Below, in pieces: positions 25,727 to 27,548 of a DNA stretch of 64,000 bases (the stretch's first letter is position 1; each line of letters starts with the position of its first letter). Under the pieces are notes generated by a model. That model searched no databases and was not told the origin of the DNA. It saw nothing but the letters and a program-made list of their open reading frames with translations. The translations under genes and the position numbers were made by a program. The stretch covers positions 1,364,001-1,428,000 of the forward strand of contig NZ_OU015584.1 in assembly GCF_907165195.1 (NCBI RefSeq), written 5' to 3'. The DNA comes from Parvicella tangerina (GTDB lineage Bacteria; Bacteroidota; Bacteroidia; Flavobacteriales_D; Parvicellaceae).

Positions 25727-26185
25727 ATGAAAAAGCATTTTTTATTAGCTCTAATCTCGGTAGTTGCGTTCTCTTGTTCATCGCATGAAGGAGATACAAC
25801 TTCTGAAACACAAGAAATAAAAGAAGAAGTAGTTGTTGAAACAATTACAGAAACTGAAGACGAAACTGGATTTATCCATACCGTATTCTTCTGGATGGAC
25901 TCAACGCTTACAGATGAGCAGATCAGTGAATTTGAAGCAGGAATGGAGAACCTGTTGAATATTGAGTCAATTTATCATGGATATTACGGACCTCCAGCTA
26001 TGACTCCAAGAGAAGTAGTGGATAATTCATACGATTATGCGTTTGTAGTTCACTTCAAGAGCAAGCAAGATCAAGACCTTTATCAAAAGGATTCTTTGCA
26101 TTTGCAATTTATAGCTGATTATAAATCCTACTGGACAAGAATACAGATCTATGATAATTTGGTGAATGCTAATTCCTCACACTGA
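25727..26185 (+). CDS. Dabb (stress-responsive A/B barrel) lipoprotein
   Basis: A 152-residue lipoprotein. The lipobox SVVAFSCSS places Cys17 as the lipidated residue. An acidic linker (about 22-45) leads to a dimeric alpha/beta-barrel (Dabb) domain from about residue 48: IHTVFFWMDSTLTDEQ, YGPPAMTPREVVDNSYDYAFVVHF, and LHLQFIADYKSYW. Dabb domains are usually cytosolic, so a membrane-anchored copy is a Bacteroidota speciality. Enzymatic activity is uncertain. It is followed by the operator region of the DUF4386 gene. Confidence 0.8.
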   Translation: MKKHFLLALISVVAFSCSSHEGDTTSETQEIKEEVVVETITETEDETGFIHTVFFWMDSTLTDEQISEFEAGMENLLNIESIYHGYYGPPAMTPREVVDNSYDYAFVVHFKSKQDQDLYQKDSLHLQFIADYKSYWTRIQIYDNLVNANSSH

Positions 26186-26199
26186 TCTCTTTTTCATTT

Positions 26200-26215
26200 C
26201 TTGACTTTCGTCAAG
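26200..26215. promoter_or_regulatory. Crp/Fnr-type palindrome CTTGAC-N4-GTCAAG
   Basis: A perfect six-base inverted repeat with a four-base spacer, the geometry of Crp/Fnr-family sites (TTGAT-N4-ATCAA in FNR; TTGAC-N4-GTCAA is a common variant). Its centre is about 42 bases before the start point predicted from the -7 box at 26238-26245, the class II activator position. A Crp/Fnr gene sits at the other end of the target gene. Confidence 0.65.
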
Positions 26216-26237
26216 GAGTTATACCTTGGGCTTGCTT

Positions 26238-26245
26238 TAGCTTTG
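26238..26245 (+). promoter_or_regulatory. -7 box TAGCTTTG of the DUF4386 gene
   Basis: TAnnTTTG match 30 bases before the ATG at 26276, without a TTG at -33. The expected -33 region lies just downstream of the Crp/Fnr palindrome, as in an activator-dependent promoter. Confidence 0.5.
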
Positions 26246-26275
26246 TGCTACTAATCAAACGTTAAATTATAAGTT

Positions 26276-26983
26276 ATGAAAGCACCGCAGTCCAAACGAA
26301 AAATGGCAATGCTAACAGGAGGCTCTATTTTAATGATGGCTTTAGCAGCTGGAGTTATCATGCCCCTGATTTTTAAACCAATCTTCGATGCCGAACTGGA
26401 TAAGGTTGATCAAGTGTTGTCAGTGATTAAACCTTATTTTCTTATTGGAATAATAGGTTGGGTAGTGATTTTGATCACAGATCTTATGGTTTCCTGGGGC
26501 CTTTACAAGTTTTACAAATCCAGAGAAAATCGTAAAGCAGAAGTAATGGGGGGGATGAGGTTTTTATACTCGGCAGGACTTGCATTGGGAATTATGCAAT
26601 TGATAAGAGCTCATCTCGTACTTGGTGAAGATAATTTCGATGCGATGCAGGTCTATGAGCTGGTAATTTCATTCCAGTCTATATGGCAATTTTCTTTAAT
26701 CATTTTTGGGGTTCATCTGTTAATGTTAAGTCCGCTCGTTTGTGAGAAGAAAACCTTCAAGCAATGGATAAGTGGAGTATTGTTTGTTGCAGGAATTGGG
26801 TACATACTCAGTAATATGGCCGATCTCTTTATCACTAATTATGATGAGTTATATCGTGAGAAAGTGGAATTAGCATTTATTTTACCAATGGTTCTCGGTG
26901 AAGTTTTGCTAGCCTTCTGGCTATTGATCAAAGGAGGTAAAGAAAGGGAGATTACTGGTCAGAAGCAACTAGTCGTTTCCTGA
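26276..26983 (+). CDS. DUF4386 domain membrane protein
   Basis: A 235-residue integral membrane protein with six or seven helices; segments such as MLTGGSILMMALAAGVIMPLI, GIIGWVVILITDLMVSWGLY and SIWQFSLIIFGVHLLMLSPL fit the DUF4386 pattern. Function is unknown. Its last 32 bases overlap the 3' end of the convergent Crp/Fnr gene, and its promoter region carries a Crp/Fnr-type palindrome, so it is probably the regulated target of its neighbour. Confidence 0.8.
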   Translation: MKAPQSKRKMAMLTGGSILMMALAAGVIMPLIFKPIFDAELDKVDQVLSVIKPYFLIGIIGWVVILITDLMVSWGLYKFYKSRENRKAEVMGGMRFLYSAGLALGIMQLIRAHLVLGEDNFDAMQVYELVISFQSIWQFSLIIFGVHLLMLSPLVCEKKTFKQWISGVLFVAGIGYILSNMADLFITNYDELYREKVELAFILPMVLGEVLLAFWLLIKGGKEREITGQKQLVVS

Positions 26984-27548
26984 TTCTGGATAACGATTCG
27001 GGAGTCATCCCCAAATAACTGGCAATTTGATGTAGTGGAACCCTGTTGATGAGGTCAGGTCGAGAGTTCAGAAAGTTCTTATATCGATCCATTGGGGAAG
27101 ATAGAATGAACTCTTTGTGTTCTTTTTTCGCTTTATTTAGATCAGACTCCAACATGTTTCGTGTTATTTCCAGAAGTTGGGGAAACTTTTCAAAGTGACG
27201 CTCCTCAATTTCTAGGTTGCCGGCAATTAGAAGGCAGTCCTCAACACATTCTAAAAAGGAAGAAGAAGGAGTTTGATTGGTGTAGGCCTCTGATGAAACC
27301 GTACCATTTGACTCCGTATAAAAAGCGGTGGTCCGCTCTGTACCATCAATAAATTGATATTCTCTAACCAGACCCTTGAGTACAAAATAACATTCGTTCG
27401 GAATCTTACCCGATTCAATCAGAACAGTACCTTTTTTTTGTGCCACTACAGGAATTAATTCAACAAGAACTTCAATCATTTCCGTATCGAGATTCGGGAA
27501 TGTTTGCAGAAAAGATCTTAGAATTGCTTGAGCAGATGAATTTGTCAT
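26952..27548 (-). CDS. Crp/Fnr family transcriptional regulator
   Basis: A 198-residue regulator. Residues about 20-120 form a cyclic-nucleotide-binding-like beta roll (GTVLIESGKIPNECYFVLKG), but the phosphate-binding cassette of true CRP is not evident and there are no N-terminal FNR cysteines. The C-terminal helix-turn-helix is VPLHQIASYLGMTPESLSRIRK (about residues 170-191), close to the consensus of Bacteroidota Crp/Fnr proteins. It is convergent with the DUF4386 gene. Its own upstream region (27549-27806) has a TGAC-N2-GTCA element that might be autoregulatory. Confidence 0.9.
   Translation of the reverse strand: MTNSSAQAILRSFLQTFPNLDTEMIEVLVELIPVVAQKKGTVLIESGKIPNECYFVLKGLVREYQFIDGTERTTAFYTESNGTVSSEAYTNQTPSSSFLECVEDCLLIAGNLEIEERHFEKFPQLLEITRNMLESDLNKAKKEHKEFILSSPMDRYKNFLNSRPDLINRVPLHQIASYLGMTPESLSRIRKRLVASDQ

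Follow-up and report, generated by a model that had tools for sequence, protein, structure and literature searches.

In the genome of Parvicella tangerina, a perfect palindrome lies between a gene encoding a Dabb-domain protein, which ends at position 26185 of the window (the whole stretch of 64,000 nucleotides analyzed here), and a DUF4386 gene starting at position 26276. Which protein reads this palindrome, and to what effect? Taking together the comparisons presented below, it is very probably the operator of the Crp/Fnr-family regulator encoded convergently on the other side of the DUF4386 gene, which would use it for class II activation of that gene. A previous sequence-only reading of the locus had described CTTGAC-N4-GTCAAG as a perfect inverted repeat centered about 42 bases before the predicted transcription start, in a promoter lacking a -33 TTG and with a Crp/Fnr gene convergent beyond the DUF4386 gene. 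All of this holds: the sequence CTTGACTTTCGTCAAG at 26200-26215 matches the palindrome exactly, its center falls at -42.5 relative to the predicted start at 26250, there is no TTG 17-23 bases before the TA of the -7 box, and both protein families are confirmed by Pfam domains, with genes that overlap at their 3' ends (Table 1). The start was predicted from the motif TAnnTTTG, which an excerpt of PMC9723704 places at -12 to -5 in promoters of Flavobacterium psychrophilum.

Table 1. Location of the features of the window and of related loci discussed in the text.
Feature	Position	Strand	Remarks
Operator CTTGAC-TTTC-GTCAAG	26200-26215		Perfect palindrome; core TTGAC-N4-GTCAA at 26201-26214; starts at 26197 when the conserved TTTC flank is included
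-7 box TAGCTTTG of the DUF4386 promoter	26238-26245	+	Operator center 30 bases before its first T
Predicted transcription start	26250	+	From TAnnTTTG at -12 to -5; unmapped
DUF4386 protein gene, 235 aa	26276-26983	+	PF14329, 95 bits, cut-off 27.6
Crp/Fnr-family regulator gene, 198 aa	26952-27548	-	Convergent with the DUF4386 gene; 3' ends overlap by 32 bases (26952-26983)
Recognition-helix codons MTPESLSRIRKR (residues 181-192)	26973-27008	-	P183/E184 taken as CRP 180/181, alignment by eye
L049 paralog operator TTGAT-TTAT-ATCAA	L049:2514-2527, G000:C1 near 1631013		Just behind the gene, 29 bases before the -7-like box GAAATTTG
L050 paralog operator TTATC-ATTT-GATAA	G000:C1 near 476380		Just behind the gene, 29 bases before the -7-like box GAACTTTG
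19 Firmicutes operators with a TATAAT-like box (among the best 80 of 584)	L140, L147, L151-L153, L163, L166, L168, L175-L178, L183, L187, L191, L194, L195, L203, L208		

By itself, a palindrome of this size is unremarkable in the window and constitutes weak evidence; it is the relatives of the regulator that supply the weight. When up to two mismatches are allowed, the window has 2 matches to the palindrome for 2.88 expected, and loose matches, being at chance level, carry no meaning. They are what one would cite in favor of a fortuitous palindrome. This reading is nonetheless so improbable as to be negligible, considering the number of exact cores in the genome and, as detailed below, the permutation control, the fixed spacing, and the presence of the site in 95 of 133 regulators under a strict test. 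The genome (3.98 Mb) has 5 copies of the exact core TTGACN4GTCAA, where the pattern read in reverse has 1, and only the copy in the window has a -7 box at 29 or 30 bases; none was found at that distance beside the remaining four (L001, L003, L004, L005).

The regulator has an N-terminal cNMP-type beta-barrel domain (PF00027, 31.2 bits for a cut-off of 27.5), and its HTH_Crp_2 domain scores 18.6, below the Pfam threshold of 27. By profile comparison, the nearest relative with a solved structure (E 9e-43) is 3dn7, a Crp-like protein of Cytophaga hutchinsonii, the record titles of which give neither function nor operator. The structural model of the regulator (pLDDT 92) has the whole Crp/Fnr fold and aligns with Crp/Fnr structures at E-values down to 2.6e-11. 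As modeled, the protein is a member of the Crp/Fnr superfamily, including the C-terminal helix-turn-helix on a long dimer helix, the predicted fold being clear despite the low HTH_Crp_2 score. In this superfamily, the oxygen sensor FNR holds a [4Fe-4S] cluster through cysteines, of which three lie close to the N-terminus, and the cAMP receptor CRP has a phosphate-binding cassette of the form GE...R[ST]. The N-terminal FNR cysteines are absent from the window regulator, whose first Cys is residue 53, and the canonical cassette GE-x(6-12)-R[ST] was found in none of 140 regulator relatives, the window one included. With a loose pattern, 119 of these 140 regulators have a Cys in an LxCxED segment, from which we do not argue for cysteine redox sensing.

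The structure of the presumed target supports no claim on its function. The DUF4386 protein is modeled as a helical bundle (pLDDT 93), for which Foldseek returned nothing at an E-value of 0.001 or better, while the top VIA-align match (Z 13.4, rmsd 2.8, 147 aligned) is a designed protein and such matches are uninformative for helical bundles. Among the open-licence articles of PMC, we found no paper on DUF4386.

We searched for the regulator in 399 genomes of the order, including its own, of which 39 had a match at an E-value of 1e-25 or better, and analyzed the surroundings of 60 loci, including the window (461,781 bases). The pattern TTRAC-N4-GTCAA or TTGAC-N4-GTYAA occurs 35 times, in 32 of the 60 loci, whereas each of the 59 other permutations of the half-site occurs at most 8 times in the same loci (median of all 60: 1). 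This permutation control was adopted because a de novo ranking of palindromes lacking a control for composition was swamped by A/T runs. When the distance from the center of a wider operator to TAnnTTT[ACGT] was allowed to range between 15 and 45 bases, it was 29 in 22 cases, 30 in 20, and another value in only 3. An operator with TAnnTTT at 29 or 30 bases is present in 41 of the 60 loci, and five control patterns gave 0 at these distances. Many of the loci that seemingly lack the site have variants, such as CTTATCTTAAGTCAATG, at the same place. The family consensus of the operator is TTTC-TTRNC-N4-GTSAA-TG, the window copy having GG instead of TG.

The genes next to these regulators are diverse. 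Among 59 regulator-adjacent genes (E-value 1e-4), there are 19 DUF4386, 13 zinc-binding dehydrogenases, 7 DUF6326, and 5 NmrA-like, plus single matches to YceI, SIR2, an outer-membrane efflux family, and DUF4345. Since these targets are unrelated, the site tracks the regulator and not any single target family. The loci most similar to the window (L077, L078, L079) form a clade with it in the tree of the regulator (SH-aLRT of 97) and each has a convergent gene 42-44% identical to the window DUF4386. In each of the three, the operator and the -7 box are 30 bases apart. The 3' overlap between the DUF4386 and regulator genes is 32 bases in the window and 17-36 in these three loci, as delimited by mechanical ORF ends.

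To this first set we added the named loci from the alignment of the regulator (the best 80 of 584) and, once identical regulators had been removed, the combined sets comprise 133 distinct regulators. A strict operator, defined as TTRHY-N4-GTSAA at exactly 29 or 30 bases ahead of the core promoter, was found for 95 of the 133, for counts of 1, 1, 1, and 0 with four control patterns. All but one of these 95 sites (94) lie at most 2.5 kb downstream of the regulator gene, in front of genes that are either convergent (56) or in the same direction (38). In 87 cases the strict site stands precisely at the neighboring gene: 50 are convergent, with a single ORF in between, and 37 run in the same direction, with no ORF in between. 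A looser count, using a weight matrix with a bonus for the box, gave 117 of 133 regulators, 115 of them with the site on the downstream side. It favors boxed sites, and at least one locus, L140, was wrongly assigned when the bonus led to the choice of a poor site over a good one. There are also misses: 38 of the 133 regulators fail the strict test and 16 the looser one, including L096, which has a SIR2 neighbor and where no site is seen.

Alternatively, the palindrome could act in RNA, as a hairpin or terminator at the 3' end of the Dabb-domain gene that precedes it. The RNA of the + strand indeed folds well (-10.4 kcal/mol, z of -5.2), with a stem that starts around ten bases past the stop codon, and a terminator scan reports one different stem that overlaps it, at 26211-26229 with a T-rich stretch behind it, for 1.5 expected by chance over the region covered by the scan. 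However, the stem of the palindrome itself has no T run after it and is absent from the output of the scan. Across the relatives, what is kept is the identity of the bases and not their pairing: at one pair of positions of the arms, 67 of 125 boxed sites have A facing C and 23 have A facing G. Furthermore, in many relatives the gene that ends immediately upstream is that of the regulator itself, or there is none. We thus regard a role as hairpin or terminator as very unlikely.

The relatives of the regulator are spread over two phyla, which differ in their core promoters. Among the best 80 of 584 loci, those of Bacteroidota/Ignavibacteria have the operator with TAnnTTT at 29 or 30 bases in 36 of 52 cases, and with a TATAAT-like element in 1. 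In contrast, those of Firmicutes (sampled from Paenibacillus, Brevibacillus, Bacillus, Exiguobacterium, Fusibacter, and others) have the operator with TATAAT (at least 5 of 6 positions) at this distance in 19 of 23 cases, and with TAnnTTT in none. Four control patterns on this second set (best 80 of 584) gave 0, 0, 1, and 0. In eight of the Firmicutes loci, the regulator-adjacent genes can be aligned to the window DUF4386, with 27-34% identity. Judging from these promoters, the distance of the operator, predicted to be at about -41.5, is constant across the phyla and the core promoter element follows the host. The Firmicutes correspond to a single change on the tree, and hence to one transfer or one old split rather than many. 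As a side observation, the unit of regulator, operator, and target is also borne by records titled as Glaciecola (CP034120), a Thalassovita MAG, and a Moraxellaceae MAG (L182, L172, and L157, respectively); in L182 and L172 the box is the TAnnTTT of Bacteroidota, and these titles or the binning appear to be wrong.

That relatives of the regulator with unrelated targets, in two phyla, have beside them the same kind of site at an unchanged distance from the core promoter ties the site to the neighbor and to a class II position, which is what the sequence-only reading had put forward. We propose that a dimer of the regulator would bind the palindrome and cover, at about -42, the place of the -33 element. 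The bound dimer would then contact the RNA polymerase and start transcription of the DUF4386 gene from its -7 box, in response to a presumed inducing signal. Regulator, operator, and target would make up a self-contained local unit, with one target in its own genome as far as visible.

It is from the geometry alone that we infer activation rather than repression. The same regulator could be a repressor that, by occupying the site at -42, blocks the RNA polymerase until a signal releases it, and such a role would suit the overlap of the site with the -33 region, since a protein bound there could be an obstacle. We find this unlikely, because a spacing fixed at 29 or 30 bases in two phyla, despite different core elements, is the need of a contact with RNA polymerase and not of a roadblock. 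A TTG at the -33 place (spacer of 17-23) is also absent from all 80 distinct Bacteroidota promoters, for 11% in shuffled sequences, and the best -35 match in the 19 Firmicutes promoters is 4 of 6 positions of TTGACA. The absent or poor -35/-33 element fits a putative class II activation, and is partly forced by the operator occupying that place. According to an excerpt of PMC7366714, the -33 motif is in any case not identifiable in Flavobacterium johnsoniae.

In its recognition helix, the window regulator has Pro at CRP position 180 and Glu at 181, in agreement with the rule for wyTTGACnnnnGTCAArw in section 8 of PMC1274295. In the relatives, with a strict pattern that admits only C or G at the tested base, E goes with C (GTCAA) in 74 of 74 cases and Q with G (GTGAA) in 20 of 20. 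Scoring that ignores the tested base pairs E with GTCAA in 95 of 99 cases and Q with GTGAA in 24 of 25. On the tree, the switch between E and Q amounts to 2 changes, in 2 independent pairs, and the operator follows the same way in 1.6 of the 2 on average. With only about two branches that switch, these cannot reach significance as counted events. The covariation therefore supports, without proving it, a putative contact between the residue and the operator. Across the relatives, site, geometry, neighbor, and recognition helix appear to go together.

These results bear on whether another Crp/Fnr paralog, or a global regulator, reads the palindrome instead of the neighbor. TTGAC-N4-GTCAA is a known FNR-like box, that of HcpR1 (PMC1274295), and the site might be read by one of the three other proteins of the genome that match the regulator. 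Yet, under the strict test, 94 of 133 distinct regulators have the site beside them, with unrelated targets, the helix residue and the operator base change together, and two of the paralogs (L049 and L050) have different operators directly behind their own genes (Table 1). We thus consider this quite unlikely and retain the neighbor as the reader. For the third paralog (L048), we saw no operator of the TTnnn-N4-nnnAA plus box kind.

The sequence-only reading had also suggested a genome-wide search for the motif to define the regulon, and here no wider set emerged. The sole exact site with a box at 29 or 30 bases is the window copy. The relaxed operator alone is not enriched in the genome (170 matches for 163 with the reversed pattern), and together with the box it has 3 matches, including the window one, for 2 in the control; with counts so close to chance, a wider regulon cannot be claimed. 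One region (G000:C1:2527365-2527608) has dense matches to TTATCAACTGTCAA and TTATCAAATGTCAA, some 14 bases apart, and is probably a short tandem repeat array.

A similar arrangement is found around more distant regulators. In 28 Crp/Fnr loci with 25-37% identity, a palindromic TTnnn-N4-nnnAA with a box at 29 or 30 bases was found downstream 22 times, for 2.0 in single-base shuffles, although some of the 22 are due to chance, to relatedness between loci, or to a single place being counted on both strands. In 12 of the 28, such a site lies at most 40 bases from the stop codon of the regulator. This suggests that private operators may be a common habit of Crp/Fnr regulators. One distant group (L025, L029, and L032), with QQSLSR in the helix, has TTAYC-ATAG-GGTAA 12 bases behind the regulator gene and 29 bases from TACTTTTG, that is, a different half-site in the same geometry.

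No match to the window DUF4386 gene was found in the 36 further genomes belonging to its genus or family. Used alone as a query, for which the regulator proved more productive, DUF4386 found no relative in the genome contigs, and in 60 genomes, its own included, it has three matches, namely itself and two weak ones (24-30%). Within the family, among the 399 genomes searched, a regulator at an E-value of 1e-25 is found only in G010 besides the genome of origin, and in G023 a contig breaks off in a fragment with 49% identity. In other families of the order (L077-L079), regulators 61-64% identical occur with a convergent DUF4386 gene. The simplest reading would be horizontal transfer of the whole unit. 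More broadly, we lean slightly towards the idea that Bacteroidota Crp/Fnr paralogs are largely private mobile cassettes. Each would activate one adjacent promoter through a fixed class II operator, with a half-site set by its own helix that keeps paralogs insulated, and one clade would be common to Bacteroidota and Firmicutes, with operator and spacing retained and TAnnTTTG replaced by TATAAT.

For about a hundred uncharacterized Crp/Fnr regulators, these results predict the operator, the target, and the geometry, and they give a first regulatory handle on DUF4386. They also point to a natural experiment, in which a single activator family would work with two different core promoters, and suggest a code from which the specificity of paralogs could be deduced by sequence. 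We found no description of these units of regulator, operator, and target in the open-licence literature of PMC.

How does the unit compare with known systems? At FNR and CRP promoters, class II activators are centered at -41.5. The spacing of 29 or 30 bases in the relatives, and of 30 in the window, places the operator at about this position relative to the predicted start. FNR and CRP class II promoters likewise have a palindromic operator of the TTGA type at about -41.5 or -42.5 and an absent or poor -35/-33 element. Unlike them, the window unit uses the Bacteroidota -7 element TAnnTTTG, and its regulator lacks the FNR cysteines and the cAMP cassette discussed above. In Firmicutes, PrfA and CprK are activators of the Crp/Fnr fold that use boxes of the TTAA type at class II promoters; their signals and targets differ from those of the window unit. 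The closest likeness in the operator is with HcpR1 of delta-proteobacteria and two cyanobacteria, whose consensus wyTTGACnnnnGTCAArw and Ser/Pro at CRP position 180, as given in the cited section of PMC1274295, are common to the window regulator. HcpR1 targets hcp or frdX, whereas the window operator precedes DUF4386, and among the other exact sites of the genome none had the box at 29 or 30 bases that could have signaled an HcpR1-like regulation of hcp or nitrogen-oxide genes. In Bacteroides, an excerpt of PMC3878776 describes BT4338 as a Crp-like global regulator and predicted Crp-family activator, with a motif of 22 bp (TATGTTnTAnAACATA) and as many as 30 carbohydrate genes in a genome. Compared with that description, the window system is a local unit with TTGAC-N4-GTCAA as operator. 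The class II mechanism itself is of a known kind.
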